Shown piece after piece: positions 27,663 through 62,257 of a stretch of DNA of 64,000 bases (positions within the stretch are counted from its first letter, which is position 1; each line of letters begins with the position of its first letter). The stretch is from Limnobacter humi. Lineage in GTDB: Bacteria; Pseudomonadota; Gammaproteobacteria; Burkholderiales; Burkholderiaceae_B. The stretch covers positions 62,001-126,000 of the forward strand of contig NZ_JANIGO010000005.1 of the NCBI RefSeq assembly GCF_024518835.1, written 5' to 3'. The notes under the pieces are model-generated. The model was given only the letters and a program-made list of their open reading frames with translations. It was not told where the DNA came from and did no database searches. The position numbers and the translations under genes are program-made.

Positions 27663-29903
27663 TTACGCGCCGAGTGCCTGTTGCAATGGGTTCAACACGG
27701 CCTCGGTACCTGCAGGGGGTGTAATTGAACTCAGGGGGGATGCACCGCTCGCCAGTGTGTCGAGCGTCTGTGCGCCGGAGAGAATGCCGCTTTCGATGGC
27801 AGGCCCGGCCGTGGGGATCATCTCCAGGGGTGCTGCACCGACCAGGGCTTCAGCCCCGCTGGTGAACATGCCGCCGCCAGTGTCACCGCCGCCAGTGTCA
27901 CCGCCGCCGGTGTCGCCACCGCCAGTGTTGCCACCGGGCAGTCCACCGCTCGCCAGTGTGTCGAGCATCTGTGCGCCGGAGAGAATGCCGCTTTCGATGG
28001 CAGGCCCGGCCGTGGGGATCATCTCCAGGGGTGCTGCACCGACCAGGGTTTCAGCCCCGCTGGTGAACATGCCGGCGCCAGTGTCACCGCCGCCGGTGTC
28101 GCCACCGCCAGTGTTGCCACCGGGCAGTCCACCGCTCGCCAGTGTGTCGAGCATCTGTGCGCCGGAGAGAATACCGCTTTCGATGGCAGGCCCGGCCGTG
28201 GGGATCATCTCCAGGGGTGCTGCACCGACCAGGGTTTCAGCCCCGCTGGTGAACATGCCGGCGCCAGTGTCACCGCCGCCGGTGTCGCCACCGCCAGTGT
28301 TGCCACCACCGGTGCCATCATCCGCATTCAGCCCGAGCAGCCCGCCCAGCGCTTCTGCGTAGGGTGCGGTGCTTTCATTGGCGCTGCCTTGTTCAACAAT
28401 GGTTTCTCCGCCGGTGGCCAAGCCGTCAGACAGCATGGCCAAGCCGTCGGCCAGCCCATTGGTCACGGGGGACAACGGTGAAAAGGCACTGCCGCTGGTG
28501 TCGGTCAGGTCGACCAAGCCTTCGCCCACTTCGTCGACCAAGCCAGCCAAGCCGGTGTGCCCGGCATCGCTAGCGCCAGTACCCGCCACGGGTGCCAGCG
28601 CGCCAATCAACACGCCCAAGGGGCCAAAGTTTTCTGCATTGGTGGCGAAGTAGTTGGCAATAATGCCCAAACCTTGCGCCACACCATCGGTTTTGCCTTG
28701 ATCGTTGTAGCCCAATGCGGCTGCCAGGGGTTTGATCACGTCAACCAAAGGACCAGACACAGCACCGTTGGCGCTGGTGCCGTCTGCCAAGCCGCGGGAC
28801 AGGCTGGCCACGCCACCATTGACGCCGGTGGATCGGTCATCGGGAGTCTCGTTGACACCCACGGCGTAACCGACCAACCTGGCCAAGCCAGATGGCTCGT
28901 CTTGTCCAGCGATGGCCGATCCGATGGTCGTCAAAACACCGCTCAATCCGTTAAAACCTGCGCCAGACAATTGACCGCCACTTGGGTCTGCGGCGGCCGC
29001 GCTCAAGCGCTCAGATCCGGCAGATTGTGCTGTGGCGGTGGAGGTGTTTCCAGCCAGTACGAATGACAAGGCGTCGGTTAGCGGCTGCAAGGGGGTGCCT
29101 GTTCCGGCGGCTTCAAGGCCAGAGCCCACTGCGCTGACCAAGCCTGCAACACCCACGGGCTCTCCATCGGTGCCTGTTCCGGTACCAGTGCCCGTTCCGG
29201 TGCCAGTACCTGTTCCGGTGCCAGTGCCCGTTCCGGTGCCAGTACCTGTTCCGGTGCCAGTGCCTGTTCCGGTGCCAGTGCCTGTTCCGGTGCCAGTGCC
29301 TGTTCCGGTGCCAGTGCCTGTTCCGGTGCCAGTGCCAGTGCCTGTTCCGGTGCCCGTTCCAGTGCCTGTTCCAGTGCCTGTTCCAGTGCCTGTTCCAGTG
29401 CCTGTTCCAGTGCCAGTGCCGCTATCGGTCACAATGGTGTCGCCACCACCGCCACCGGCGGCTGCAAGGCCCAGCAGTCCGAGTCCACCCAAGGCAACCG
29501 CACCGGCACCGCCGCCAGCGGCGCTGGCCAGCAACCCTGCACCCACCAAGCCACTCATGGTGCCTTCATAGGGGGTCAGGATGGCTGAGCTGATGTCATC
29601 TGAAATGTCGTACAGCTCAACGCCTTCGGAGAGCGCAACCACTTCGGTGCGGGCATACCCGTCAGCCGTTGGGCTGGGAATCTGTTTGAGTTCGGCAGAG
29701 GCGCCAGGCGCCAATGTCAGCAATGTGCTGCCCTGGCCTTTGTATTGGGCGGGAATCAGCACTTCAATATCAGCGGCGGTTTTGTTGGTCAGTACGTCAC
29801 CCCAAGCCAAGCTGCCGTCTTGTCCCAGCGTCATTTGTTGTCCGGCTCTGGAAACGTCCAGGCCTGTGGTGGTGGTTTTAATGGTTGCAACGGGAGATGC
29901 CAT
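27663..29903 (-). CDS. Large Gly/Thr-repeat protein, putative surface protein, unknown
   Basis: A 746-residue protein from ATG 29903 ([24 protein letters not shown]); an ATG at 29942 is less likely. Residues 1-100 form a domain like that of the downstream paralogue, followed by a Gly/Ala-rich hydrophobic stretch (about 125-155, [14 protein letters not shown]). Then come a 42-fold Gly-Thr dipeptide tract (about 162-245), a long region rich in PLTDALS, GLADGL and GLVDEVG-like segments, and three tandem copies of a roughly 62-67-residue repeat at the C-terminus. No Sec signal, LPXTG or RTX motif is visible. The architecture suggests an exported, extended structural or adhesive protein, but this is inference. 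Confidence 0.75.
27745..28310 (-). repeat. Three tandem 62-67-codon repeats within the large Gly-rich gene
   Basis: On the plus strand the copies begin at 27745, 27946 and 28132, each with CCGCTCGCCAGTGTGTCGAG. The two copies at 27946 and 28132 are almost identical at DNA level over 186 nt. The third, nearest the protein C-terminus, is longer through extra GGGDT units and has substitutions. Each unit encodes a Gly/Asp/Thr linker, then [19 protein letters not shown] and [16 protein letters not shown]. The near-identity points to recent duplication or gene conversion. Confidence 0.92.
29169..29420 (-). repeat. Gly-Thr coding minisatellite (6/12/18-nt units)
   Basis: A 252-nt tract encodes 42 consecutive Gly-Thr dipeptides. 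The DNA is built from 6-nt units in 12- and 18-nt higher-order patterns such as CCTGTTCCGGTGCCAGTG on the plus strand. All unit lengths are multiples of 6, so slippage would change length without breaking the frame. Confidence 0.95.
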
Positions 29904-30219
29904 GGTGGACCTCGTCAGTAAATGGATGTAAAAAGACTTCAAATGGATACAGGTTTTACTGACAGCCGATTGTGTTTGGATTCAAAAAAAGAAAAAATTT
30001 TTTTTGTTTTTAAATCAATCTGTTCGTGGAATGTGATTTGTCTTTCCGGCGATTTTGTTACATGTGTTGCGTGGATGTTTTTAACGTATTGACTGTGTCT
30101 GATGCGTGTTTGAAGACGACACACTTTCAATCCGCTGGCCCACTGCCCGGCTTTGGGGCGGTGGTTGAGCGGCAAAAGCCATTAACATGCCCCTTGGTTT
30201 GTTGTAAAAAGAATGTGCT
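29904..30219. other. 316-nt divergent intergenic region
   Basis: Between the large Gly-rich gene (leftward) and the TamA-like gene (rightward). It holds the inverted repeat at 29914-29963 and a marked A-tract/T-tract (29984-30013) that would bend DNA or serve as an UP-like element. GC content is much lower than in the flanking genes. I see no convincing -35/-10 pair and no small gene. Confidence 0.6.
29914..29963 (-). promoter_or_regulatory. Inverted repeat next to the RBS of the large Gly-rich gene
   Basis: GTCAGTAAA (29914-29922) and TTTACTGAC (29955-29963) are perfect 9-nt inverted arms, and AAATGGAT occurs twice between or beside them (29920-29927, 29941-29948). The arm nearest the gene abuts the GAGG Shine-Dalgarno. 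In RNA it could form a long-loop hairpin beside the RBS; in DNA the arms are about four helical turns apart and could bind a dimeric regulator. Confidence 0.4.
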
Positions 30220-39752: not shown

Positions 39753-39917
39753 CTTCGCCTCGCGCTGTGATGTTGTTGGGTTGGTACAGCTTGCACCAAT
39801 GACGCTTATTTAACCGGAAGTCCATTCCAACAACTTGGCAGCACACCCTTCGAAATTCAGCGCATTGTTGAAAAGATACGCCGCACCGCTTTTGTTAAGG
39901 TGTGGCAATTGAAGGCA

Positions 39918-40559
39918 ATGGACGTTCTGACCGACGGGAGCCAACACGTGGAATGCATTCCTCACATCGAAGAGCTCTACATTCGAAGTTACCCGCTGGG
40001 CGCTTCTGCCGGGGCCTATGATCGCAAGTTGATTGATCTTCCGGTCACGCTTCGTCTCCAGGAGCAATCGTTTTACCTCACTTACCGCCGAAGCCTGGCC
40101 GGCCAGTGGTCGGTCATGTGTTCGGATGTTCAACTGCGCGCCTTGCGAAAGCACTTGACCGTGATGCAAGTGCAGGCCAGTGAACTGGACACCGAGTTGG
40201 CTCGAGTTTTTGCAGCGGTGCAATCCAGTTGCGCGGAAGCGCTGGATGCCTTGCCAACGCATGCAACCCGTCGTGATGTGTTGGATGCCTTGATTCAGTG
40301 CGGGGGTATCAACCCGCTGTTGGTGTTGGATGAGTTTCGCTTTTATCACTTGACCGGCCCGCAGGTGTTGGCGGTCCGAATGCTGCCTGGGCCAGATGGT
40401 GCGCTGGATGACGTCATCGAGCTGAGCCTGGTGCAGTGGAAAGAATTCTGTGCGGTGTTAACGACATTGGCTCCCCAGGGCCGCAACGCCATGATGGATT
40501 GGGTGCGCAACACCCTGCAGGAGATTCGTTCGCCCCTGTCCCTGGAGAACGCTGCATGA
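39918..40559 (+). CDS. Hypothetical protein upstream of fliK-like gene
   Basis: A protein of about 213 residues from ATG 39918 (MDVLTDGSQHVECIPHIEELYIRSYPLG); a GTG at 39900 would add six residues. I do not recognise it. It appears soluble, with mixed alpha/beta content and no signal peptide or membrane helix. The stop overlaps the fliK-like ATG by 4 nt (ATGA), so it is translationally coupled to a flagellar hook-length gene and may be flagellum-related. Confidence 0.7.
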   Translation: MDVLTDGSQHVECIPHIEELYIRSYPLGASAGAYDRKLIDLPVTLRLQEQSFYLTYRRSLAGQWSVMCSDVQLRALRKHLTVMQVQASELDTELARVFAAVQSSCAEALDALPTHATRRDVLDALIQCGGINPLLVLDEFRFYHLTGPQVLAVRMLPGPDGALDDVIELSLVQWKEFCAVLTTLAPQGRNAMMDWVRNTLQEIRSPLSLENAA

Positions 40560-42496: not shown

Positions 42497-42952
42497 CTAG
42501 CGCAGGATAACGTTGTTGACCAGCCATGCGCTGGTTTGCGGCAAGTAGTGCAATTCCACCACCACGTTTTCCGTAGACGGCCGACCATCGACCACTTGTG
42601 AGAACACAGCCCGGGCGCGGTTGGTTTCGGTCAGTGTGTCTGACACATACACATAGCGAAACGATTGAATGTGTTCATTCTGGATACGCAGGGCCACGGC
42701 TTCGCTCAAGAGCTTGATGGCCATGCGGTGCTCGGCCGTGTTCAGACTGAGCTTGGTGGCGGCGGCCTGATCGTTTTTTGCAATCGCGTCCAGAAATGAT
42801 TGGGCTGCAATCCGGCGCTGAGAAAACTCCAGGTCCTTGCTGCAGGCGGTCATCAGCAACACAGCGCCCATCAACAGACCCATCAGCAGTGTGAGCCAAG
42901 GGGCTTTCCGGTTTGCGAACATCGGGGGCAGTGCAGTCATGGCGTTGGGCAT
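42497..42952 (-). CDS. Predicted lipoprotein, unknown function
   Basis: A protein of up to 151 residues with a signal sequence and lipobox (LLMTACSKD, cysteine about residue 37). The mature part (EFSQRRIAAQSFLDAIAKNDQAAATKLSLN) resembles NTF2-like small lipoproteins of the DUF4878 type. Several ATGs compete (42952, 42940, 42922). Convergent with the fliK-like gene, 12 nt apart, and divergent from fliE. Nothing ties it to flagella besides position. Confidence 0.75.
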   Translation of the reverse strand: MPNAMTALPPMFANRKAPWLTLLMGLLMGAVLLMTACSKDLEFSQRRIAAQSFLDAIAKNDQAAATKLSLNTAEHRMAIKLLSEAVALRIQNEHIQSFRYVYVSDTLTETNRARAVFSQVVDGRPSTENVVVELHYLPQTSAWLVNNVILR

Positions 42953-43061: not shown

Positions 43062-43373
43062 ATGAATGAAATGTCCAGATTATCCAGTGCTTCTCCCTTG
43101 CAATTGCTGGGTACACAGTCGGGCATCAGTCCTCAGTCTGCATCCGGCACGCCCAGTTTCACCGAGGTGTTTGGTGATGTGTTGTCGTCGGTCAGCAAGG
43201 CACAGGATACCTCCCGTCAGTTGTCGGTCGGTCTTCAGATGAATGATCCCAAGGTGTCTGTGGAAGACGTGGCCATTGCGTCCAATGAGGCACAACTCAA
43301 GTTTCAAACCTTGCTCCAGACCCGCAATAAATTGCTGCAGGCCTACAGTGACATCATGAGCATGCCGGTCTGA
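43062..43373 (+). CDS. fliE: Flagellar hook-basal body complex protein FliE
   Basis: Small adaptor between the MS ring and the proximal rod, exported through the flagellar T3SS. The 103 residues end with the conserved VSVEDVAIASNEAQLKFQTLLQTRNKLLQAYSDIMSMPV helix, and the middle FTEVFGDVLSSVSKAQDTSRQL is typical. Start MNEMSRLS. Separated from fliF, its usual neighbour, and placed before fliM instead. Confidence 0.94.
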   Translation: MNEMSRLSSASPLQLLGTQSGISPQSASGTPSFTEVFGDVLSSVSKAQDTSRQLSVGLQMNDPKVSVEDVAIASNEAQLKFQTLLQTRNKLLQAYSDIMSMPV

Positions 43374-43383
43374 AGGAGTATCC

Positions 43384-44481
43384 ATGCTCGCTGAATTTCT
43401 CACCCAAGATGAAGTGGATTCGCTGCTCCGGGCCATCACCGGAGAGGACTCCTATTTCAATTCGGATGATTCGGAAGAGTCGCAAGTCAAGCCCTACAAC
43501 CTGGCCAAGCAGGAGCGCATTGTCCGTGGGCGCATGCCAACGCTGGAAATCATCAATGAGCGATTTGCCCGCTTGTTGCGCATCGGCTTGTTTGATTTCA
43601 TGCGGCGAATGCCCGAAGTCACCGTGGGCTCTGTCAAAGTTATCAAGTACAACGAGTTCATCCGCAACCTGGCGGTGCCCACCAATTTGAACCTGATTTC
43701 GCTCAAGCCACTGCGCGGCAATGGTTTGGTGATTCTGGACCCCACCATGATTTTTGCCATGGTCGACACCATGTTCGGTGGTGATGGTCGCTTGCAAACC
43801 GAAATTGAGGGTCGCGAGTTTTCCGCAACCGAGCAGCGCATCATTGCGCGGGTGCTTGAGGTGGTGTTCTCCGAATATGCCAAGGCATGGGCACCGGTGT
43901 ACCCGTTGGTCCCAGAGTATGTGCGCTCGGAAATGCACACCCAGTTCGCCAACATTGCAAACCCGGCAGAGATTGTGGTGTCCAGCCGGTTTGAGATTGA
44001 ATTGGGCGCCACTTCCGGCACCATTCACATTTGCATTCCCTATTCATCGCTGGAGCCCATCCGGGATGCGATGAGCTCGGCCGTGCAAAGCAACCAGGGT
44101 GAAACGGACCGCCGTTGGTCCAAGATGCTCAAAAGCCAAATGCAGCAGGCCGAAGTTGAGTTGCAGGTCAACCTGGCATCGACCCAGTTGACGGTTGCTG
44201 ATGTGCTCACGCTGCAGCAGGGCGATTTCATTCCCTTGAGCATGGGGCCGACCGTGCAGGCCCGCGTTGACAACGTTCCCGTGTTTGAGTGTTCTTATGG
44301 CGTGAGCGGGGGGCAGTATGCGGTCAAGGTGGAAAAAATGATTAAACCAGGTGATGACTCCACGTTGCTGAGAACGCCCAGAGGTGCGGATTTCAAATCG
44401 CTCAGCGAGGTGTATTCGCTGGTGACCCAGCATGGTTCCGAACACCTGGACAAGCTGACTGACATTGCCAAAGCCGATTAA
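43384..44481 (+). CDS. fliM: Flagellar motor switch protein FliM
   Basis: C-ring switch component that binds phospho-CheY and FliG. The 365 residues have the N-terminal FLTQDEVDSLLRAITGED peptide (CheY-binding region), the RIVRGRMPTLEIINERFARLLR segment, the FliG-binding GGDGR motif in MFGGDGRLQTEIEGREFSATEQRII, and the FliN-like SPOA domain at the C-terminus (VADVLTLQQGDFIPLSMGPTV). Ten nt after fliE, with RBS GAAGGAG. Confidence 0.97.
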   Translation: MLAEFLTQDEVDSLLRAITGEDSYFNSDDSEESQVKPYNLAKQERIVRGRMPTLEIINERFARLLRIGLFDFMRRMPEVTVGSVKVIKYNEFIRNLAVPTNLNLISLKPLRGNGLVILDPTMIFAMVDTMFGGDGRLQTEIEGREFSATEQRIIARVLEVVFSEYAKAWAPVYPLVPEYVRSEMHTQFANIANPAEIVVSSRFEIELGATSGTIHICIPYSSLEPIRDAMSSAVQSNQGETDRRWSKMLKSQMQQAEVELQVNLASTQLTVADVLTLQQGDFIPLSMGPTVQARVDNVPVFECSYGVSGGQYAVKVEKMIKPGDDSTLLRTPRGADFKSLSEVYSLVTQHGSEHLDKLTDIAKAD

Positions 44482-44500
44482 TTCAGGATTGAGTTTCAAC

Positions 44501-44887
44501 ATGACCACAGACACCAGCAAAACCCAAGCCGACCCCGCGAGCAAAGTGATTTCAGAATCTGAACTCGGCGAGGTTGAGGCGCATCGCTTCGGCATGTTGT
44601 CCGGTCAGGGCAGCGAGGAATCGGGCAACGACATCGACATCATTTTGGACATCCCCGTGACCCTGAGCGTTGAACTGGGGCGAACCAAAATTCCGATCAA
44701 ACACATTCTGCAGTTGGCACAGGGCAGTGTGGTGGAGCTGGATGGCCTGGCTGGTGAGCCCATGAATGTGCTGGTCAATGGTTGCCTGATTGCACAGGGT
44801 GAAGTGGTGGTGGTGAACGACCGCTTCGGTATCCGTCTCACCGACATCGTGACGCCCTCGGAGCGGCTGCGCAAACTCAACGGCTAA
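44501..44887 (+). CDS. fliN: Flagellar motor switch protein FliN
   Basis: C-ring component with a SPOA domain. The start at 44501 (MTTDTSKTQADPASKV) gives 128 residues. The core (about 55-125) reads IILDIPVTLSVELGRTKIPIKHILQLAQGSVVELDGLAGEPMNVLVNGCLIAQGEVVVVNDRFGIRLTDIV, a clear FliN signature. Nineteen nt after fliM, and 3 nt before the FimV-like gene. Confidence 0.97.
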   Translation: MTTDTSKTQADPASKVISESELGEVEAHRFGMLSGQGSEESGNDIDIILDIPVTLSVELGRTKIPIKHILQLAQGSVVELDGLAGEPMNVLVNGCLIAQGEVVVVNDRFGIRLTDIVTPSERLRKLNG

Positions 44888-44890
44888 GGC

Positions 44891-46462
44891 ATGCTCCGTT
44901 TTCTTCTTTCAGTGGGCATGGCCGGGTTGCTGCTGTCCCACAGTGTTCAGGCGGTTGAATTGGGCCGGATGGAAATCCGTTCCCAGGCCGGCATGCCGTT
45001 CATCGCCCACATTGCACTGACAGCCAGCCCCCAGGAGTTGAGCAATCCCGAATCGGTGGTTGTGAATTTGGTGGGTGGCGACAACAGCGATTTTCAGGGC
45101 AGCGTCAGAACCCGGCTTTTCCTGCAGCCGCAGGGAGCAGGTGGTTTTTTGCGTGTCACAGCATTGGACCCGTTGCCACGGTCGGTGGTGTTGACATTTT
45201 CGGCTTCAACACCCGACGGACCCTTGTTGCGTGAATATGCAATCGACAATGGTGTGGTTCGCACCCGTGACATCCAGAGGCCCAAACCCCCGGCGCCACC
45301 AGCACCCACACCCCTGCTAAAACCGGTGGCCGAACCGGAAGATGCCGATGTCAACGCTGACAAGGTGTTGGAACCCGCTCCACCCGAGGGAATTGAGCTA
45401 CGGCTGTTGGACCAGACCAATGATGGCGCGATGCCGTCCCCCCGCGCCACAGCCAGTGATCTGGAATTGCTGGCCAAGTCGGATGCAGCACTGAATGCAG
45501 ACCCAAACCTGCGTGAACAGGCACGCACTGCGCTGGGTGTGATGGGTCAGTTGAAAGACCGTCTCGCTTTGTTGTTTCAAATCAAAGCCAGCAAGGCCGT
45601 GGTAGAAGCCGCAGTGAGTCGGGACATTGAACAGGAGCCCAGCAGCTACACCTTAACGTTGCAAACGGATGCAAAGACCAACCGTGCGCAGCCTGTTCCT
45701 GAAACCGGCAGTGCGCCGGACAAGCCGCTAGCGCCGGTTCAGTCGCCCGCTGTGGGTGCACCCGCTTCAGCATCTGCCGCGCCAGCCTCGTCGGCAAGTC
45801 CTTCGGCGCAAACTCAACCACAGCAGCCCGTGGCCAAACCGGCACAACCCGCGCGGGGCAATGATTTGATCCGCTACTTTGTCATCACGATTGTGTTTGC
45901 AGTGATTGTGCTGGTGGCGGGTTATGCCTGGATGCTGCGCAACAGGCCCCAGTGGATTCCCGCCCCGATGCAGTCAACGGATGCCCCTTCCGCGCTGCGT
46001 GAAGAACCGGTATTGCCCGCACCGCAAACACCGGTGGCAGCCTTGCCCAACCGGCCCGAGTTGCCTGAAACGATGATGGATGAGCCAGTGGTGGATGCCG
46101 AACCTGCCCCGCAGGCTGCACCACCGGTGATGGCGAGCTTGCCGCCTGAGCCCGACTTTGATGACACGCCGCCGGACTGGGCTGATGCCGATGATGATGC
46201 CATTGATGTGCCGCCTGCTGCGCAGGCCGATGCCGAGGTTACCAACCCGATGGTGGATGTAGAGCCTGAGCGGTTTGAAGAGCCTGAATTCAAGAATGAA
46301 AACGATGCCCGCATTGAGTTGGCGGCCGCCTACATGGAAATTGAGGACTTCGACGCTGCGATGAAATTGATCGACAGTATTGAGGGCGAGCTCACGGAGG
46401 TGCAGATGAATCGCCTTCAAAAAATTCGTGAAGAAATGACGCAGGGTGAGGCGGATCAATGA
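44891..46462 (+). CDS. FimV-like membrane protein in the fliO position
   Basis: A 523-residue protein between fliN and fliP. It has a signal peptide (1-21), then an N-terminal domain VELGRMEIRSQAGMPFIAHIAL that resembles the FimV/HubP N-terminus. A Pro/Ala-rich region, a single membrane helix (about 327-350, YFVITIVFAVIVLVAGYAWML), and an acidic linker follow. The C-terminal motif DARIELAAAYMEIEDFDAAMKLIDSIE, TPR-like, resembles the FimV C-terminal domain. No LysM is seen. FliO, a short single-span protein that helps FliP assemble, is expected here and is absent, so this may replace it or be a polar landmark. Function is inference. Confidence 0.7.
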   Translation: MLRFLLSVGMAGLLLSHSVQAVELGRMEIRSQAGMPFIAHIALTASPQELSNPESVVVNLVGGDNSDFQGSVRTRLFLQPQGAGGFLRVTALDPLPRSVVLTFSASTPDGPLLREYAIDNGVVRTRDIQRPKPPAPPAPTPLLKPVAEPEDADVNADKVLEPAPPEGIELRLLDQTNDGAMPSPRATASDLELLAKSDAALNADPNLREQARTALGVMGQLKDRLALLFQIKASKAVVEAAVSRDIEQEPSSYTLTLQTDAKTNRAQPVPETGSAPDKPLAPVQSPAVGAPASASAAPASSASPSAQTQPQQPVAKPAQPARGNDLIRYFVITIVFAVIVLVAGYAWMLRNRPQWIPAPMQSTDAPSALREEPVLPAPQTPVAALPNRPELPETMMDEPVVDAEPAPQAAPPVMASLPPEPDFDDTPPDWADADDDAIDVPPAAQADAEVTNPMVDVEPERFEEPEFKNENDARIELAAAYMEIEDFDAAMKLIDSIEGELTEVQMNRLQKIREEMTQGEADQ

Positions 46463-47199
46463 AAAGATTTGGATTGGCCACTGCACTGATGATCGGTTTG
46501 CTGTTGGTGCTGGAACCGGCATGGGCGCAGCAATTGCCAGGTTTCGTATCCACCCCGGGGCGCAACGGCTCCACCGTGTATTCGCTGCCAGTGCAAACGC
46601 TGCTGTTCATGACATTCCTCACGGTACTGCCCGGCCTGCTGTTGATGATGACCGGGTTTACGCGCATTGTGATTGTGATGTCCCTGTTGCGGATGGCGTT
46701 GGGCACGCAGAACTCGCCGCCCAATCAGGTCATCATCGGGTTGAGTCTGTTTCTGACTTTTTACATCATGTCGCCCACCTTCAATCAGGTGTACAACCAG
46801 GCGTATCTGCCCTACGACGACGGAAAAATCACCTTCCAGCAAGCTGTGGATGTGGCCACCAAACCCGTGGCAGCATTCATGATCAAGCAAACCCGAGCCG
46901 AGGATTTTTCACTGTTCGCCAGTTATGCTGAAAAACCCGTGAGCAAGGTGGAAGATGCGCCCATGTCGGTGCTTATCCCGGCTTTTGTCACCAGTGAACT
47001 CAAGACGGCGTTTCAGATCGGTTTCATGATCTTTCTGCCGTTTCTCATCATTGACCTGATTGTCTCCAGTGTGCTGATGTCCATGGGGATGATGATGTTG
47101 TCACCAATGCTGATTTCACTGCCATTCAAGTTGATGCTGTTTGTCTTGATTGATGGCTGGAACCTGCTGATGGGTTCCCTGATTCAAAGTTTCGCGTGA
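46459..47199 (+). CDS. fliP: Flagellar export gate protein FliP
   Basis: Core subunit of the FliPQR export gate. The 246 residues have a signal peptide (to about 23, EPAWAQ) and the signatures PVQTLLFMTFLTVLPGLLLMMTGFTRIVIVMSLLRMALGTQ, PPNQVIIGLSLFLTFYIMSP, and VLIPAFVTSELKTAFQIGFMIFLPFLIIDLIVSSVLMSMGMMMLSP. Overlaps the FimV-like gene by 4 nt. FliQ and FliR, its usual next genes, are on the opposite strand 1-2 kb away. Confidence 0.97.
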   Translation: MKRFGLATALMIGLLLVLEPAWAQQLPGFVSTPGRNGSTVYSLPVQTLLFMTFLTVLPGLLLMMTGFTRIVIVMSLLRMALGTQNSPPNQVIIGLSLFLTFYIMSPTFNQVYNQAYLPYDDGKITFQQAVDVATKPVAAFMIKQTRAEDFSLFASYAEKPVSKVEDAPMSVLIPAFVTSELKTAFQIGFMIFLPFLIIDLIVSSVLMSMGMMMLSPMLISLPFKLMLFVLIDGWNLLMGSLIQSFA

Positions 47200-47205
47200 G
47201 CCGAC

Positions 47206-48339
47206 ATGTCGGAAGACAATGATGTCGAACGCGAGTTACCGGCCACCGAGCGAAAAATCCAGAAAGCTCGGGAAGAGGGCAACATACCGCGATCCAAAGA
47301 CCTTGCCGGCGCATTGGTGGTGCTGGTTGGTTTGTTGGGGGTCAGTGTTCTGTCCGGGTTTCTGACCGACCAAAACAAGCAATTGATGAAATCGGCCCTC
47401 ACCCTGAGTGTGGCCGATGCCAAGGACCCCGCCCGCATGCCGGTGGCTTTCATGGAATTGCTGCTCAAGGCATTGCTCGTGATTTCCCCCTGGTTGCTGG
47501 CGGTGGCTGTGGCTGCTGTGGTGGGCACTTTGCTGGTGGGTGGTGCGGTTTTCGTCACCAAAAACCTGGAGCCCAAATTCTCCAAGCTCAACCCAATCAG
47601 CGGGTTGAAGAACATGTTTTCCGCGCATGCCATGTTCGAGTTTGTGAAAGCCCTCGTCAAAGCGTTGGTGATTGGCGGTGTGGCGTTCGGCCTGGTGTGG
47701 ATGAATGTGAATGAATTTCCCCGCATGATGACCATCCCCCTGCCCAACGCGATTGAACTGGCAACCGCCTTGGCCCTGAAGGACGCGATGGTGCTGGCCT
47801 TGGTGTTCGCGGTGGCTGTGTCGCCCGATGCACCGTACCAGATTTTCCGGTACCTCAAGCAGTTGCGGATGAATGTGGAGGAGATCAAGCGGGAGCAGAA
47901 AGAGTCCGAGGGAGACCCGCATGTCAAAGCCCGTGTTCGGCAAATACAGCGGGACATGTCGCGCCGACGCATGATGGCCTCAATTCCCAATGCGGATGTG
48001 ATTGTGACCAACCCCACCCATTACGCGGTGGCCCTGGCTTACAAGGATGGCAAGGGTGCGCCACGGGTGGTGGCCAAGGGCGTTGACCTGATTGCCCACC
48101 AGATTCGTGAGTTGGGCAAAACCCATCACATCGCCCAAATTGAAGTGCCACACCTGGCACGTGCGCTCTACAAGCACGTGGACATTGACCGGGAAATTCC
48201 CCCAACGCTGTACACCGCTGTGGCCAAGCTGCTGGCCTATTTGTACACCATGGAGCAGGGCCAGGTTGATGAGGCGGTGTTTCCCGGCGAACAGGACATT
48301 CCGGTGGGCATGGACCCTGGGCCAAGCCCCGAGTCTTGA
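47206..48339 (+). CDS. flhB: Flagellar export switch protein FlhB
   Basis: Inner-membrane export-gate protein governing the substrate-specificity switch. The 377 residues start MSEDNDVERELPATERKIQKAREEGNIPRSKD, as in FlhB, followed by four membrane segments and the cytoplasmic domain with the autocleavage site NPTH near residue 268 (VIVTNPTHYAVALAY). It lies 6 nt after fliP; flhA is 9 kb away, not adjacent. FliK-type proteins probably act on its cytoplasmic domain. Confidence 0.97.
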   Translation: MSEDNDVERELPATERKIQKAREEGNIPRSKDLAGALVVLVGLLGVSVLSGFLTDQNKQLMKSALTLSVADAKDPARMPVAFMELLLKALLVISPWLLAVAVAAVVGTLLVGGAVFVTKNLEPKFSKLNPISGLKNMFSAHAMFEFVKALVKALVIGGVAFGLVWMNVNEFPRMMTIPLPNAIELATALALKDAMVLALVFAVAVSPDAPYQIFRYLKQLRMNVEEIKREQKESEGDPHVKARVRQIQRDMSRRRMMASIPNADVIVTNPTHYAVALAYKDGKGAPRVVAKGVDLIAHQIRELGKTHHIAQIEVPHLARALYKHVDIDREIPPTLYTAVAKLLAYLYTMEQGQVDEAVFPGEQDIPVGMDPGPSPES

Positions 48340-48351
48340 ACCGCCACTGCG

Positions 48352-49110
48352 CTACCGATTCCAGATCGGAATGGTAAACAGGGTGTTGAATGCGCTTTCG
48401 AAAAAGCTGACAAAGAATGGCAGGGACAGGTACAGCAGCGCCAGGCCTGCGAAGATGGTGATCGAAAACCCCACCGACATGATGTTGAACTGCGGCGCTG
48501 CGCGACTCAACAGGCCCAAGGCGATGTTCACCGACAGCACACACGCCATGATGGGCAAGGTGAGCTGCATGGCGATTTGAAACAACAGCAAGCCACTTTG
48601 GGCAATTTTCAACGGGTTGAGAAAACTGAAATCGGTCGAGATGGGCACCACCTGAAAACTGGTGAGGATGCCATCCATGGCCATGAGATGGCCATTCATG
48701 CTGAGGAAGACCAGCGTGGCCATGATGTTGAGAAACGCGCCGATCATCGGCGAGGTGGTGGCTTTTTGCGGGTCAATGAACATGGCAAATGCCAGGCCCA
48801 TCTGCAAGCCAATGAAGTCACCGGCCACCTCCATGGCGGCGAAAATCACCCGCATGAAAAACCCCAGTGAAACCCCGACCAGAATTTGCTGAAAAACCAG
48901 GGGAACCAGGGGCTGTGTGGTGTCGAAGCTGGCCACCGGTGTGCCGGCCACCAGGTATGCCGTGAAGGCAGCAAGGCCAATTCGCACGCGGCGGTTCACC
49001 GAGCGTGCATCAAACAGGGGAGCCGTGGCGAGCAGTGCGCTGACGCGAATGAAGGGCATCATCCATTGCATGAGCCAGGTGTTGAACCATGCACTGTCGA
49101 TCTCGAACAT
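48352..49110 (-). CDS. fliR: Flagellar export gate protein FliR
   Basis: FliPQR gate subunit, 252 residues from ATG 49110 (MFEIDSAWFNTWLMQWMMPFIRVSALLATAPLF), matching the FliR N-terminus; a TTG at 49125 is an alternative. About six membrane segments, with VNRRVRIGLAAFTAYL, EVAGDFIGLQMGLAFAMFIDP and GLLSRAAPQFNIMSVGFSI typical. Convergent with flhB (12-nt gap). It starts 7 nt after the fliQ stop. Confidence 0.96.
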   Translation of the reverse strand: MFEIDSAWFNTWLMQWMMPFIRVSALLATAPLFDARSVNRRVRIGLAAFTAYLVAGTPVASFDTTQPLVPLVFQQILVGVSLGFFMRVIFAAMEVAGDFIGLQMGLAFAMFIDPQKATTSPMIGAFLNIMATLVFLSMNGHLMAMDGILTSFQVVPISTDFSFLNPLKIAQSGLLLFQIAMQLTLPIMACVLSVNIALGLLSRAAPQFNIMSVGFSITIFAGLALLYLSLPFFVSFFESAFNTLFTIPIWNR

Positions 49111-49117
49111 GGCGGGC

Positions 49118-49387
49118 TTAACCAATTATGCTGGGGATGGTCTGGATCAATCGGCGCGAATAATCCACCAGGGTACTGAGCATCCAGGGGCCCAAGGCCA
49201 ACAAACAAAAGAAGATGGCCAAGACTTTGGGGATGAACGACAGGGTCATTTCGTTGATTTGTGTGGCCGCTTGAACGATCGACACCAACAGTCCCACGAT
49301 TAGTGCAATCAAGAGCAAGGGTGCAGAGACCATCAGCATGGTCAGCAGGGCATCCTGCCCAAGGTTCAGTACCGTCTGTGCATTCAT
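49118..49387 (-). CDS. fliQ: Flagellar export gate protein FliQ
   Basis: Small two-span gate subunit, 89 residues from ATG 49387 (MNAQTVLNLGQDALLTMLMVSAPLLLIALIVGLLVSIVQAATQINEMTLSFIPK), the family signature. It precedes fliR on the minus strand, so fliQR form a separate unit from fliP and face the other way. Divergent from fliS. Confidence 0.95.
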   Translation of the reverse strand: MNAQTVLNLGQDALLTMLMVSAPLLLIALIVGLLVSIVQAATQINEMTLSFIPKVLAIFFCLLALGPWMLSTLVDYSRRLIQTIPSIIG

Positions 49388-49518
49388 GAAAAAAATTGTC
49401 CTGTGGGGGGCAGTGGGCCTTGTGGACATTATTTCCAAACCGGTGGCGGATTGGCCATGTGAAATCCCACCAAAATCAACCATTTCATTTGTGCTGTCGC
49501 CGTCAAAGAGTTGTTACA

Positions 49519-56681: not shown

Positions 56682-57173
56682 ATGAGCAAAGCCATTGAAC
56701 TGTTGAAGGACCGCATCAGTCTCGAAGTCAGCGAGATGGAATCGCACATGGCCTTGATCCAGTCCAGCATCGAGAAAGGTCAGCACAGCATCCACATGCT
56801 GACCGATTACGTTCGCCAGTATTCAGAAAAATTGGCATTCATGGGGCAATGCACAGCGGTTGATGAACTCACCCCGCACACCATCAGTGGCACCGAATTG
56901 AAGGCGCACAATCAGTTTGCCGGAAAGCTCATGTCGGCCTTGGCTGCGCAGGTTCGGCAAAATGAAACCAACAAGGCCTACCTGCGGCAAGCGGCTGAAA
57001 ATTTGAAACACCTGAAGCTCAAGCAGAAAACGCTGGAGCAATTGCTGGCAAGGCGCGAGGCTGTTCTGGAAGAAAAACAGCTTCGCCGTGAGCAAAAAGA
57101 ACTGGATGAGCTGGCCAATGGTCGGTATGCCCGCACCCTGCTGCTGAAGTCTGCAGAAGGGAGGCTGGCATGA
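56682..57173 (+). CDS. fliJ: FliJ-like export component
   Basis: A 163-residue, highly helical, coiled-coil protein between fliI and flhA. FliJ is the central stalk linking the FliI hexamer to FlhA. Evidence is position after fliHI and the long charged helices (RISLEVSEMESHMALIQSSIEK, NLKHLKLKQKTLEQLLARREAVLEEKQLRREQKELDELANGRYA). Sequence conservation in this family is low. The stop overlaps the flhA start (ATGA). Confidence 0.75.
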   Translation: MSKAIELLKDRISLEVSEMESHMALIQSSIEKGQHSIHMLTDYVRQYSEKLAFMGQCTAVDELTPHTISGTELKAHNQFAGKLMSALAAQVRQNETNKAYLRQAAENLKHLKLKQKTLEQLLARREAVLEEKQLRREQKELDELANGRYARTLLLKSAEGRLA

Positions 57174-59263
57174 GCGTGCCCCAAGCCACCCTGAATGATG
57201 TCCTGAAAAATGCGGTAGACCTGAACAAGGCCCGTGCCCTTGCTGCGCCAGTGTTCATTTTGCTGGTGTTGGCCATGATGGTGTTGCCATTGCCAGCCAT
57301 GGCGCTGGATGTGCTGTTCACCTTCAACATTGCGCTGTCCATGGTGGTGTTGGTGGCAGCCCTGTACACCAAAAAACCGCTGGATTTTTCGTCTTTCCCA
57401 ACGGTGTTGCTGATCACCACGTTGCTGCGCCTAAGCCTGAATGTGGCCTCCACCCGCGTGGTGCTTTTGCATGGTCATGAGGGCACTGATTCAGCCGGCA
57501 AAGTGATTGAGGCTTTTGGCCACTTCTTGATTGGTGGCAATTTGGCGGTCGGCATTATCGTGTTTGTCATCTTGATGGTGATTAACTTTGTGGTGATCAC
57601 CAAAGGCGCTGGACGCATTGCAGAAGTGTCTGCCCGTTTCACCCTGGACGCCATGCCCGGTAAGCAAATGGCCATTGATGCCGATTTGAATGCTGGGTTG
57701 ATTACCGAGGCCGAGGCCAAGAAGCGTCGACAGGAAACCGCACAAGAGTCGGAGTTTTACGGCTCCATGGATGGTGCGTCGAAATTTGTTCGTGGTGATG
57801 CCGTGGCGGGTGTGTTCATTCTCATCATCAACATTGTGGGCGGACTGGCTGTTGGCATGTTGCAGTACGACCTTGGCTTTGCCAGCGCCGGGCAAAAATA
57901 TGTATTGCTCGCCATTGGCGATGGCCTGGTGGCCCAAGTGCCTGCGCTATTGATTTCCGTGGCTGCCGGTTTGGTGGTGGCGCGCGTGGGCCAAGGGCAG
58001 GACATCGGCACCCAGGTGGCCTCGCAACTGGCGCAGTCCCCCCAGGTGTTTGCCATGTGTGCAGGCGTGTTGTTGTTGCTGGGTTTCATTCCCGGCATGC
58101 CCAACCTGCCATTCCTGATGTTCGGTGCCGGCATGGCCGGGCTGGCTTACTGGCTGCAAAAGCGGTCCATGGCCCCAGTGGAAGACAACACCGAGCAGGC
58201 CGTGAGCCGCGCCATGAAAGAGGTGGCCGATGCCAGTTGGGATGACATCAAACCCGTTGAACCCCTGGCCCTTGAAATTGGCTATCGCCTGATTCCCCTG
58301 GTGGACAAAGGGCCTGACAGCGATCTGCTCAAACGCATCAAGGCCATCCGGAAAAAATTCACCCAGGAAATGGGCTTTCTGCCACCCCCCATCCATGTGC
58401 GAGACAACCTGGATTTGCCACCCAACAGTTACCGCCTGCTGATCAAAGGCGTCAACATGGCGCAGGCCGATGTTGAGCCGGGTGCGTGGTTGGCGATTGA
58501 TCCAGGCGAGGTGGTGCTGCGCTTGCCTGGCCCTCAAACTGTTGACCCCACGTTTGGCATGCCAGCCTACTGGATTGAGCAGGACATGACCGAGCGCGCC
58601 CAGGCCGGTGGCTACACCGTGGTGGACGCAGCCACCGTGATTGCAACTCATGTGTCGCACCTGTTGTCCAACCACGCGTCCAAACTGATCGGCCGCGTGG
58701 AATGCCAGCAACTGCTGGAACACTTTGGCAAGTTGTATCCCAAGGTGGCTGACGAGTTGATTCCAAAAATGTTGTCCCTGTCGGCATTCCAAAAAGTGCT
58801 GCACAACCTCTTGGATGACAGGGTCAGCATTCGCGACATGCGAACCATTTTGGAAACGCTGCTGGAACACGCACCCAAAACCCAAAATCCAGTTGAACTC
58901 ACCGGCTTGGTTCGCATTGCCCTATCCAGTTCGATTGTTCAAGGCTTGGCTGCTCCCGACCGGGATTTGCAAGTGTTGGTATTCGACCCCAAGCTGGAAA
59001 ACATGATTATCCAGTCCAACCAAGGGCAGGCACCGGCCGACGTGGCGATTGAGCCCAACCTGGCCAACACCATGAGCAACAAGCTCACGCATGAGGCGCA
59101 GCGCCTGCTCGCCATGGGCCAAAGCCCCGTGTTGCTGGTGCAGGATTTCTTGCGCCCAGCGCTTGCACAGCTGCTGCGCAAAGCTGCGCCAGGCCTGACG
59201 ATTTTGAGTCATAGCGAAGTGCCGGAGTACAAAAAAGTCTCCGTGTTGTCTGTCATTAAATAA
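57170..59263 (+). CDS. flhA: Flagellar export apparatus protein FlhA
   Basis: Largest export-gate component, 697 residues. The N-terminal half has eight membrane segments and the FHIPEP-type signature (LDFSSFPTVLLITTLLRLSLNVASTRVVL, GKVIEAFGHFLIGGNLAVGIIVFVILMVINFVVITKGAGRIAEVSARFTLDAMPGKQMAIDADLNAG). The cytoplasmic half contains the chaperone-docking platform. Overlaps fliJ by 4 nt. The gene is 9 kb from flhB. Confidence 0.97.
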   Translation: MSVPQATLNDVLKNAVDLNKARALAAPVFILLVLAMMVLPLPAMALDVLFTFNIALSMVVLVAALYTKKPLDFSSFPTVLLITTLLRLSLNVASTRVVLLHGHEGTDSAGKVIEAFGHFLIGGNLAVGIIVFVILMVINFVVITKGAGRIAEVSARFTLDAMPGKQMAIDADLNAGLITEAEAKKRRQETAQESEFYGSMDGASKFVRGDAVAGVFILIINIVGGLAVGMLQYDLGFASAGQKYVLLAIGDGLVAQVPALLISVAAGLVVARVGQGQDIGTQVASQLAQSPQVFAMCAGVLLLLGFIPGMPNLPFLMFGAGMAGLAYWLQKRSMAPVEDNTEQAVSRAMKEVADASWDDIKPVEPLALEIGYRLIPLVDKGPDSDLLKRIKAIRKKFTQEMGFLPPPIHVRDNLDLPPNSYRLLIKGVNMAQADVEPGAWLAIDPGEVVLRLPGPQTVDPTFGMPAYWIEQDMTERAQAGGYTVVDAATVIATHVSHLLSNHASKLIGRVECQQLLEHFGKLYPKVADELIPKMLSLSAFQKVLHNLLDDRVSIRDMRTILETLLEHAPKTQNPVELTGLVRIALSSSIVQGLAAPDRDLQVLVFDPKLENMIIQSNQGQAPADVAIEPNLANTMSNKLTHEAQRLLAMGQSPVLLVQDFLRPALAQLLRKAAPGLTILSHSEVPEYKKVSVLSVIK

Positions 59264-60505
59264 TTGGGTGCGAATGTGTTGCAGAAACGATTGGCAGCAA
59301 CCTCAGCGGAAGCCTTGAAATTGATCACCGATGAATTTGGTGATGACGTGGTGATCGTGTCGACCAAGCAGGTGGACAACGGCGTCGAAGTGATTTTCGC
59401 CAGCGCCCAGGCGGTGGCCTCGCTGGACCTCAGCCCGGATGGCAGTGTACCCAAGGCCAAGCTCACCACGCGAAAGCGTCCGTCCGATCCTGCGCACAAG
59501 GAACCTCGCCCCCAGGGTGTTGAGCTGGACAATCGCGAGGCTGCACAACCCGACATGACCGAGGCACTGGCTCGGGAAGTGGCCCAGCTCAAGAACTTGG
59601 TGCAACAGCAATTCAGTCAGATCAGTTGGCAGAACTGGGCCACTGGCGACCCCTTGCGCGGCAAAATCTGGCAAGACCTTCAAGACCTGGGGTTCTCGCC
59701 ACTGGTGGCCCGCACGCTGGTCGATGGCATTCCGGAGGGACTGGACCATGTCAAAGCCAGCGCCTGGGTGATTGAAGCCATCGCTAGCAAACTCACCGCG
59801 CTTCAGCCTGACATCGAGATGATTCAGAAAGGCGGTGTGTACGCTGTGGTTGGCCCCACCGGCAGCGGAAAAACAACCACCATTGCCAAAATTGCTGCGC
59901 GTTGCCTGGCCCTGAAAGACCGCGCCTCCGTTGCCCTGATCACCACCGACACCTACCGCATTTGCGCGATTGACCAGTTGCGGACTTACGCCAAAGTCAT
60001 TGGCGTGCCCGTGCACGTGGCACTCAATGCTGGCGAGTTGGAATCGCACCTCAAAACCCTGTCGAAAAAACACTTGGTGTTGATCGACACCATGGGCTTG
60101 TCCCCCCGCGATGTGCAAATCACCGAGCAGATCGGCCTGCTGGACCGTCACGATATTCAAAAGCTGCTGGTGATGAATGTGTCGTCCCAGCCCCGGGCTT
60201 TGAGTGAAGTGGCAGACCGCTTCCGCGGTAACGGTTTTTACGGGGCTGTGCTCACCAAGCTCGATGAGTGCTCTTACATTGCAGGCAGCATCGACCTGGC
60301 GCTGCGCGAAAATCTTAATTTGATGTACATGTCGACTGGTCAGCGGGTTCCCGAAGACCTCTACCTGGCCGATGCGCACTTTCTGGTGCAACGGGCCATG
60401 CGTCGCCAATACGAACAAGCCTATGCCCGCACGGAAGAGGAAGTTCAGTGGCTGCGTTATGGCGTGGCCAATCAGGTGGTGAATGATGACATTCGACGCA
60501 CTTGA
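59264..60505 (+). CDS. flhF: Flagellar biosynthesis GTPase FlhF
   Basis: SRP-family GTPase that sets polar flagellar number and site. The 413 residues contain the P-loop GVYAVVGPTGSGKTTTIAKIA, TTDTYRICAIDQLRTYAKVIGVPV (G2/insertion box), LIDTMGLSPRD (G3) and LTKLDE (G4). The TTG start abuts the flhA stop; a GTG at 59276 is an alternative. FlhF normally precedes flhG, but the next gene is fliA with a 23-nt overlap. Confidence 0.95.
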   Translation: MGANVLQKRLAATSAEALKLITDEFGDDVVIVSTKQVDNGVEVIFASAQAVASLDLSPDGSVPKAKLTTRKRPSDPAHKEPRPQGVELDNREAAQPDMTEALAREVAQLKNLVQQQFSQISWQNWATGDPLRGKIWQDLQDLGFSPLVARTLVDGIPEGLDHVKASAWVIEAIASKLTALQPDIEMIQKGGVYAVVGPTGSGKTTTIAKIAARCLALKDRASVALITTDTYRICAIDQLRTYAKVIGVPVHVALNAGELESHLKTLSKKHLVLIDTMGLSPRDVQITEQIGLLDRHDIQKLLVMNVSSQPRALSEVADRFRGNGFYGAVLTKLDECSYIAGSIDLALRENLNLMYMSTGQRVPEDLYLADAHFLVQRAMRRQYEQAYARTEEEVQWLRYGVANQVVNDDIRRT

Positions 60506-61199
60506 AAAAGCCGCGCTGCTGGAGCGGCACATGCCCGAGGTGCAGCGCATTGCTGCCCAGATCCGCAGCAAACTGACCGCCAATGTGGAATTGGACGACT
60601 TGGTACAAGTGGGCATGATCGGCCTGATGGATGCCCTGCAGCGCTACACCCATGGCGAATCGTCCTTTGAGGCGTATGCACATTTCCGGATACGCGGCGC
60701 CATCATGGACGACCTGCGTGAAAAAGACCATTTGCCCCGCGCGGTGCGGCAAATGCGCAAGCAGGTGGAGCGCCAGCGCCAGCAGCTGGCCCACCAACTG
60801 GGCCGGGAGCCCTCTGAAATGGAGTGTGCCGCAGCACTGAATTTGCCGCTGGTGGAGTACCGAAGCTGGCTCAGTGATTTTGAACAAACCCAATGGGTGT
60901 CGTTGGAAGACATGGCCGACGACACCCAGGGCGTGCAGCAGGTGATGGACCGGTTGACCGAGCAGCAAGACACGCTGGAAGACACGCTGGCCCAACGTGA
61001 AAGCCGTGAAGAATTGCTCAACCTGATTGACGGTTTGTCAGACCGTGAGCAATTGGTGTTGCGCCTGTATTTTGAACAGGAAATGACATTCAAGGAAATT
61101 GGCAGCCTCATGGGCGTCAATGAATCCCGCGCCTACCAAATGCACAACCAGGCCTTAACCATCCTGAAAGGCATGGCAGCCCAGCGCCTGGCGGGCTGA
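60483..61199 (+). CDS. fliA: Flagellar sigma factor FliA (sigma-28)
   Basis: RNA polymerase sigma factor for late flagellar genes. The 238 residues have conserved regions 2 (VELDDLVQVGMIGLMDALQRYTHGESSFEAYAHFRIRGAIMDDLRE), 3 (LPRAVRQMRKQVERQRQQLAHQLGREPSEMECAAAL) and 4 (LIDGLSDREQLVLRLYFEQEMTFKEIGSLMGVNESRAYQMHNQAL). Overlaps flhF by 23 nt. The usual intervening flhG is absent. Confidence 0.96.
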   Translation: MMTFDALEKAALLERHMPEVQRIAAQIRSKLTANVELDDLVQVGMIGLMDALQRYTHGESSFEAYAHFRIRGAIMDDLREKDHLPRAVRQMRKQVERQRQQLAHQLGREPSEMECAAALNLPLVEYRSWLSDFEQTQWVSLEDMADDTQGVQQVMDRLTEQQDTLEDTLAQRESREELLNLIDGLSDREQLVLRLYFEQEMTFKEIGSLMGVNESRAYQMHNQALTILKGMAAQRLAG

Positions 61200-61301: not shown

Positions 61302-61706
61302 ATGAGCCAAACCAATTCAGCCCCCAATCCCCGAGACATTCACGACGGATTTTATGAGTCGCTGGAGGCGCAAGCACGTGATGCACTGATCACGGGTGAC
61401 TATGCACGGGGTTCGCTGATCAACCCAGCCACGGTGCTCATGCTCTTGGCCGAGTTGAGAAAGTCACGCAGTGCATTGAAATCCGTGTTGGGGCAGGGTG
61501 ATTATCAGCAGGGTTACAAAGACGGTTGGGTGGATGCACGCTTAACACCGCCCGCCGATTGCAAGCCTGTGGCGTGGGCCATCATTCAACCGGGTGAGAA
61601 ACTGGTCAAGGTGTTTTCCGAACCACCCCAAACATTGCCGGCCAATGCGCAATGTCGCCCACTGTATGTGCAGGCTCAAACTTCACTTTCTTCTTCAGTC
61701 AAATAG
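61302..61706 (+). CDS. Hypothetical protein next to flhC
   Basis: A 134-residue soluble protein from ATG 61302 (MSQTNSAPNPRDIHDGFYESLEAQARDALITGDYARGSLINPATV). No domain recognised; a GYKDGWVDARLTPPADCKPVAW segment stands out. Its 3' end overlaps the convergent flhC by 31 nt, between fliA and flhDC. A role in motility control is possible but is inferred from location only. Confidence 0.7.
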   Translation: MSQTNSAPNPRDIHDGFYESLEAQARDALITGDYARGSLINPATVLMLLAELRKSRSALKSVLGQGDYQQGYKDGWVDARLTPPADCKPVAWAIIQPGEKLVKVFSEPPQTLPANAQCRPLYVQAQTSLSSSVK

Positions 61707-62257
61707 CGCTGGTAGTGTTTGTTGTCAAAGCAAATCTTGGGGCCAGGCCGGCTCTGGATGTCGCACAGCGCACACTGAAACTGCCCCGCCACATCATACG
61801 GATCCACCACGAAATTGCCCTGGCATTGATGGCAGGTGATGGTTCGTAGCACACCGCTGGCCACATGGCGAAACAAGCTCCAGGCGCGGGTCATGCTTAA
61901 AATGGGTGGGTTGTCGATGGCCTGCACCGTTTGCAGGTACAAGGTGTATGCCGCAATCAATACATCGGTTTTTCCAAGCTGCGGGTTGTCGCATTCCACC
62001 GTGTTGTAGATGCTCATGAACAAACTGGCATGGGCATTGGGCGCACGGAATAAAAACCACTCGGTGGAAAACGGCAATGGCCCCTTCTGGGGCGCTTCAC
62101 CTTTTACTTCCTTGTAAATCGACAGGCAGCGGTCACGCGACAACTGGGGAAACTCTGACTGAATCACCTGCAAGCGCGCACCCAGCGCAATCAGCTGGGC
62201 AGCCTTTTGAACGGCCTGCGCATCGTCCAGTACGCTTTTCTTCAACGCAGTGCCCAT
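61676..62257 (-). CDS. flhC: Flagellar master regulator subunit FlhC
   Basis: Zinc-containing partner of FlhD in the FlhD4C2 activator of class II flagellar promoters. The 193 residues have the four-cysteine zinc site C142, C145, C162, C165 (TCHQCQGNFV and QCALCDIQ) and PLPFSTEWFLFRAPNAHASLFMSIY. The start is 2 nt after flhD. Presence of flhDC puts the flagellar hierarchy under the enterobacterial-type regulator rather than FleQ. Confidence 0.95.
   Translation of the reverse strand: MGTALKKSVLDDAQAVQKAAQLIALGARLQVIQSEFPQLSRDRCLSIYKEVKGEAPQKGPLPFSTEWFLFRAPNAHASLFMSIYNTVECDNPQLGKTDVLIAAYTLYLQTVQAIDNPPILSMTRAWSLFRHVASGVLRTITCHQCQGNFVVDPYDVAGQFQCALCDIQSRPGPKICFDNKHYQRYLTEEESEV

Follow-up and report, generated by a model that had tools for sequence, protein, structure and literature searches.

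In a flagellar gene cluster of Limnobacter humi, the position between fliN and fliP, which is the gene position of fliO, is held by a gene for a 523-residue protein, here called gene X and its product X. What kind of protein this is, whether it stands in for FliO, and what it may do inside a flagellar operon are the questions that the locus raises. The window referred to throughout is the whole stretch of DNA that was analyzed (64,000 nucleotides). A sequence-only reading had described the gene as FimV-like and had offered two possible roles for it, a takeover of the FliO function or a link between polar marking and assembly of the export gate.

Gene X within the flagellar set of the window

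The frame of gene X is open and intact from its ATG start through 523 codons and is packed tightly between its neighbors: the stop codon of fliN ends at 44887, leaving 3 nt to gene X, and the stop codon of X at 46462 overlaps the ATG of fliP at 46459 by 4 nt. This agrees with the earlier description of a 523-residue reading frame in the fliO slot with 3–4 nt of spacing or overlap on each side. From the fliN stop to the fliP start the distance is 1571 nt, and the third-position GC of X (0.62) is lower than that of its neighbors (0.70–0.73). The features of X and of the surrounding flagellar set, in window coordinates, are:

43062..43373, + strand: fliE (PF02049 2.4e-22), 10 nt before fliM
43384..44481, + strand: fliM (PF02154 1.5e-70)
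44465..44887, + strand: fliN (PF01052 9.6e-25, TIGR02480 1.5e-31)
44891..46462, + strand: gene X, putative LysM-less FimV/HubP-type protein of 523 aa in the fliO position (open reading frame, profile comparison)
44957..45241, + strand: FimV_N Ig-like domain of X, residues 23-117, predicted to lie outside the cytoplasm (PF25800 3.7e-5, below the curated cut-off; hhalign 95.8)
45866..45940, + strand: predicted single membrane span of X, residues 326-350 (hydropathy peak 2.57; modeled helix 322-350)
45947..46459, + strand: predicted acidic cytoplasmic stretch of X, residues 353-523 (pI 4.05, 25% Asp+Glu), including, at about 470-523, modeled helices that match the FimV C-terminal motif (TIGR03504 on the tail, below the cut-off)
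46459..47199, + strand: fliP (PF00813 4.8e-81; TIGR01103 over its cut-off)
47206..48339, + strand: flhB (PF01312 1.3e-114)
48352..49125, - strand: fliR (PF01311 1.6e-64)
49118..49483, - strand: fliQ (PF01313 3.5e-31)
57170..59263, + strand: flhA of the window set (PF00771 2.3e-264 at C25:119266-121227)
59264..60505, + strand: flhF of the window set; its product is the proposed partner of X (SRP54 GTPase domain 1.1e-28)
60483..61199, + strand: sigma factor of the fliA kind (PF04542, PF04545), overlapping the end of flhF
61676..62257, - strand: flhC (PF05280 4.6e-56)

Pfam profiles also recognize FliH, FliJ, FliS, FliT, and FlgE in the window; the next 20 kb encode FliD, flagellin, FlgD, and two rod-type proteins, likewise recognized by Pfam. 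FliF, FliG, and FliI of the window were named by reading the sequence and by their match to the cluster on contig C27 of the same genome. As only 10 nt separate fliE from fliM, there is no room for fliL between them. Likewise, flhG is not in its usual place, since the fliA-type gene overlaps the end of flhF and leaves no room after it. The FlhG motif DQAxxLR was found in no frame of at least 40 aa, and the FlhG-like protein of the other flagellar set of this genome (see below), used as a query, gave no convincing match (best E 0.021, far from flagellar genes). The window FlhF is 36% identical to the FlhF region on contig C24, and the N-terminal stretches of the two are alike by eye. Inside the flagellar cluster two proteins are without a Pfam match, at 39900-40559 (+) and 42497-42952 (-), one of them with a lipoprotein-like start. 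Elsewhere in the window, neighboring proteins at 26742-27515 and 27663-29942 (-) have N-termini that are alike by eye, also without a Pfam match, and the larger of this pair contains a long run of Gly-Thr dipeptides.

Comparison of X with FimV/HubP and with FliO

The order of parts in X, with signal peptide, Ig-like domain, span, acidic region, and C-terminal helices, is that of FimV-type proteins, and the claim of a single span is borne out, one span (about residues 326–350) being found besides the signal peptide. The FimV/HubP-like N-terminus held up in several comparisons. The FimV_N profile (PF25800) matched whole X at an E value of 1.1e-3 and the N-domain alone at 3.7e-5 (24.2 bits against a cut-off of 27), hhalign gave a probability of 97.2 over 125 columns for X against an alignment of seven FimV-type proteins and of 95.8 for the N-domain against FimV, and BLASTP returned an E value of 1e-9, valid for that single comparison, between X and the genome's own FimV. 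For the C-terminal motif, described earlier as TPR-like, the outcome is more mixed: FimV_Cterm (TIGR03504) matched whole X at 2.7e-3 and the tail at 1.6e-4, and three helices are modeled there, but the 21.6 bits of the tail fall below the cut-off of 30.65. Against the FimV alignment the tail reached a probability of 37.5 over 45 columns. Matches to PF01476 (LysM) or TIGR03505 (FimV-core) were absent from X, this region being a gap in the FimV alignment, and X is therefore named FimV-type and not a full FimV.

The structural models of X are unreliable as wholes (pLDDT 46.4 and 55.6). The N-domain is modeled as all-strand with a pLDDT of only 55.6, the span falls in a modeled helix with block pLDDT of 57–74, and the C-terminal motif consists of three modeled helices with block pLDDT mostly of 78–85, the rest of the cytoplasmic stretch being mostly of low confidence. 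A PDB sequence search with X gave no match up to E 10, a fold search with the N-domain model gave none at E <= 0.001, and PADLOC did not match X. Judged from these sequence comparisons, X appears to be a protein of the FimV/HubP kind, a kinship that is strong and well supported at the N-terminal end and moderately supported at the C-terminal end.

Profile comparisons with FliO covered little beyond the span. Neither PF04347 nor TIGR03500 matched X up to E 1, and hhalign aligned 15 residues of the span with ten FliO sequences at a probability of 2.9; against 53 FliO sequences, 17 span columns aligned at a probability of 2.7. The positive control consisted of the best FliO candidates, all diverged, at ten other fliP loci of dual-FliP genomes; these aligned over 66–105 columns at probabilities of 30–99.7. 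The negative controls on the 53-sequence alignment, which left out one locus without a gene in the slot (L146), were another such locus (L148) and the genome's own FimV, each at 0.4. The genome's own FliO reached 0.2 against the FimV alignment. The cytoplasmic beta-sheet core of FliO found no match in X, and the low-confidence model has no strands there.

The span itself was scored on a matrix of FliO spans, on which X reaches -12.4 against 12.7–59.9 for 40 of 41 true FliO spans, each left out in turn; because the 41st scores -14.1, below X, this test is not absolute when taken alone. Among 1275 segments filtered as not FliO-like, a count that includes duplicates and X itself as three nested frames, 23 other span segments outscore X. 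At least three of these (L078, L142, L145) belong to diverged FliO candidates that the filter had not removed, and two (L117, L120) to FimV-type proteins, so that the likeness of the X span to FliO is not special to FliO. A search with a local FliO model through 890 six-frame reading frames of at least 50 aa, from the window and the next 20 kb, placed X itself at the top with an E value of 0.33 and 6.4 bits over residues 296–350, which comprise linker and span only. Applied to 27 loci of the order outside its training set, this model detected FliO at E <= 1e-3 in every one, and at this sensitivity the earlier statement that the window contains no other fliO candidate stands. A diverged FliO, or a FimV-FliO chimera joined through the span, was rejected as a description of X on account of the missing core, the weak span score, and an E value of 0.33 only.

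A second flagellar set in the genome, and the wider distribution

Profile searches of the L. humi genome recovered three FliP, three FlhA, and one FliO at E <= 10. The single FliO is encoded by an ordinary fliO at C27:17020-17262 (PF04347, E 6.9e-19), between fliN and fliP. Contig C27 further matches fliD, fliS, fliE, fliF, fliG, fliH, fliI, fliM, fliN, fliP, fliQ, and fliR, with a FliL-like frame, named by eye, preceding fliM; contig C24 carries flhB, flhA, flhF, and a FliA-type gene. Together C27 and C24 presumably make up one flagellar set. There are thus two flagellar gene sets in this genome, both of them with an export gate and an flhF, and because the C27 set has the ordinary order fliN-fliO-fliP, fliO is missing only from the window set. 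The sequence-only reading had held that a separate fliO elsewhere in the genome would speak against it; such a gene does exist in the letter, but it belongs to the other flagellar set. A third FliP/FlhA set, on C1, is distant (its FliP is 37% identical to the window FliP) and is taken to be a non-flagellar type III system. The genome encodes two FimV_N proteins, of which X is the weaker, and a canonical fimV, for which a genome search had been proposed, was found on C12 with the LysM/FimV-core present (TIGR03505 7.8e-17). On C24, at L098 4109-4930 (-), a protein encoded between flhF and the sigma factor gene has the FlhG motif DQAxxLR (as DQATTLR), but a pattern search shows no P-loop in it, and neither Pfam nor NCBIfam matches it; judging from its sequence, it may be an FlhG whose ATPase site has been lost.

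A tree of 43 FliP sequences places the window FliP beside the 16 FliP of the genus and not among them; its branch has a support of 91/95, below the tool's mark for firm branches, and its end branch measures 0.4. This position would fit an old duplication or an arrival from an unsampled relative.

Relatives of X were sought at E <= 0.001 in overlapping whole-genome samples of the family, order, and class, a search that could miss FimV-type proteins that are too diverged. Matches occurred in 4 of 268 family genomes (L. humi and three others), 14 of 399 order genomes (L. humi and 13 others), and 1 of 369 class genomes (L. humi itself). At the 16 other match places, taken as stretches of 1.9–3.5 kb, none of 20 proteins from the flagellar region of the window (X aside), nor fliC or fliD, matched at E <= 1e-5. 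Ten of these places were read: eight encode FimV-type N-termini that match the L. humi FimV or X, and by eye the other two (L008, L010) resemble unrelated transporters. Scans of public contigs by short exact peptides, which reach close relatives only, found no relative of X in genome_contigs, viral_contigs, or plasmids and none of the window FlhB in genome_contigs.

The 15 other genomes of the genus are without a match to X, and the fliN-fliP slot, readable in 14 of them, measures 485–789 nt. Altogether 67 fliP loci were examined (14 of the genus, 28 of the order, 23 from dual-FliP genomes, one in G214, and that on C27). The distance between the fliN and fliP matches is 140–1069 nt in the 60 with both in reach, versus 1571 nt in the window. 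Eleven genomes with at least two FliP contain 12 further copies, ten of which have a FliO-like gene upstream (weakly scored at L142 and L147); the other two (L146, L148) are without FliO, as only 140–155 nt lie between fliN and fliP. The order fliN-fliO-fliP is ordinary in G214, a genome of the same family with the best FliP score after the window. On contig G153:C113 (19.5 kb; L057, L167), from a same-genus genome with 6% contamination, a part of flhA is followed by flhF, the second fliP of that genome, fliQ, and fliR, without fliN or fliO. Pfam identifies genes for a family-A DNA polymerase and for RecJ next to them, and ParA-like and integrase-like genes were recognized by eye. Some flagellar export-gate genes may be carried here on a mobile element, or the contig may have been mis-binned.

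At least two FimV_N matches at E <= 1 are present in 18 of 31 chosen genomes, the second one exceeding the cut-off in 12. None of 20 extra FimV_N places from these genomes, a number that leaves out G395:C5, which is over the cut-off, and the weakest places, lies beside flagellar genes, an FlhF-like match of 87 residues at one of them (L118) being taken to be general P-loop likeness. In many of the 31 genomes, FimV_N proteins outside the main fimV locus (L107-L126) are of very different lengths and occur in varied settings. X is a single-genome case: a FimV-type gene within a flagellar operon was seen once in these samples. Since it is found in one genome only, no conservation backs a function for it.

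Possible roles of X and comparison with known systems

Tentatively, and at somewhat under an even chance, we favor the reading that X is a shortened FimV/HubP-type protein dedicated to the window flagellar set, anchoring that flagellum after the loss of FliO. The localization of X, its binding to FlhF, its translational coupling, and its effect on the gate are what we infer. The Ig-like FimV domain in the periplasm would place X in the envelope, the single span would fix it to the inner membrane, and the FlhF of the window set would be held by the acidic cytoplasmic tail, which bears the FimV C-terminal motif. FlhF would then capture FliG-FliF, and the basal body and the FliP-FliQ-FliR-FlhB gate would form where X sits, and translation coupled to fliN and fliP would make X available together with the components of C-ring and gate. 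A dedicated landmark or adaptor for the window FlhF is favored because the set has its own flhF, because no flhG was found in it, and because of precedents in Shewanella and Pseudomonas putida. In Shewanella the cytoplasmic region of HubP is bound by the GTPase domain of FlhF, and FlhF delivers FliG and FliF to the pole (PMC11236974); polar placing in P. putida requires the Ig-like domain of FimV (PMC12918733). In this reading X would anchor its flagellum, probably via the FlhF of its own set; a link to polar marking is plausible. The kinship with FimV, the FimV-type order of parts, the tight spacing, and the two sets each with an flhF support the dedicated landmark, while the missing LysM, the occurrence in one genome, scores below curated cut-offs, and the unreliable models count against it. 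The canonical FimV of the genome could also serve both flagella.

The FliO takeover of the sequence-only reading would have X, though unrelated, stabilize FliP and promote formation of the FliP-FliR core, the role that FliO plays in Salmonella. The exact position and spacing between fliN and fliP, the one-span build common to X and FliO, and the failure to find FliO in the window set all speak for it. In addition, the slot seems to tolerate envelope-facing parts, as some FliOs elsewhere gained AMIN or LysM domains according to a 2025 survey in PNAS (PMC12403147). The same survey gives the span plus a cytoplasmic beta-sheet as the defining core of FliO, and X is without this core (17 columns at a probability of 2.7, no cytoplasmic strands in the low-confidence model) and has a span scoring far below those of 40 of 41 true FliOs, though above the 41st. 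Moreover, FliO is reported there to be often missing from second (lateral) flagellar sets in several Pseudomonadota, so the fliO gap in the window set needs no substitute and a FliO role for X need not be assumed; in Salmonella, excess FliP bypasses FliO (PMC5542435). Replacement of the FliO function by X is possible but unsupported, and the takeover is regarded as unlikely. Still more doubtful is that a landmark protein displaced FliO and does both jobs, marking a site in the envelope and nucleating assembly of the FliP-FliR gate there. Alternatively, X could be a passenger, derived from a FimV paralogue that entered the operon once FliO had gone, with a minor or general envelope role, FliO being unneeded or borrowed from the C27 set. 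Extra FimV-type proteins are common in the chosen genomes and lie beside flagellar genes at none of the 20 places read, an ordinary FliO is available in the same cell, two of the 12 further fliP copies have no FliO next to them, and the lower third-position GC of X would agree with such a history. Yet an intact frame of 523 codons, set closely against both neighbors, and the retention of every recognizable FimV part except LysM speak against this history, and we consider a passenger rather unlikely. A very diverged FliO with a gained FimV-like outer domain, in the manner of AMIN-FliO and LysM-FliO, is highly improbable: gene position, a span ending in W-M-L-R that is a little like the W-L-K-R of FliO, and the top rank among window frames on the FliO model, at a non-significant E value, are outweighed by the missing beta-sheet core, which diverged FliO candidates do align, by the higher FliO span scores of two FimV-type proteins, and by a C-terminus that matches FimV and not FliO.

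The interpretation in the sequence-only reading is supported in part: there remain the relation to FimV/HubP, the occupied slot, and a window set in which no FliO was found; against it stand the absence of a FliO core from X and the fliO on C27. New here is a FimV-type gene filling the fliO slot, whereas the loss of fliO from second (lateral) sets was already known. The word FimV is absent from the main text of the 2025 FliO survey (PMC12403147), and a search of open PMC papers for FimV together with fliO yielded none on a FimV-type gene in the fliO slot. Should X position its own flagellum, then a bacterium that has two flagellar gene sets would place each of them by keeping a private landmark within the gate operon of one, and the connection between HubP/FimV, FlhF, and the export gate could be tested on this case. 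Should X replace FliO as well, an unrelated membrane protein would be able to fulfil the FliO function, a point relevant to why FliO is dispensable for some flagella and for the virulence type III systems. Were X both landmark and gate nucleator, flagellar position and the birth of the export gate would be set by one protein.

In comparison with known systems, X resembles the FimV/HubP polar landmark proteins (PF25800, TIGR03504, TIGR03505) in having a signal peptide and an Ig-like FimV_N domain, then a single span with an acidic region on its cytoplasmic side, and, less clearly, the FimV C-terminal motif, but differs in the missing LysM/FimV-core and in family scores that stay under the curated cut-offs. 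It is shorter, at 523 aa, than the canonical FimV of the same genome (732–756 aa, depending on the choice of start) and, unlike that protein, is encoded inside a flagellar operon. With FliO, including the AMIN-FliO and LysM-FliO forms, X has in common the gene position, a single span, and an added envelope-facing domain, but the defining cytoplasmic beta-sheet core of FliO is absent from X, and no match to a FliO model is significant. As in genomes with second (lateral) sets that are without fliO, two flagellar sets occur together here and FliO is present in one and missing from the other, with the difference that in L. humi a FimV-type gene occupies the slot and the set without FliO comes with an flhF of its own.
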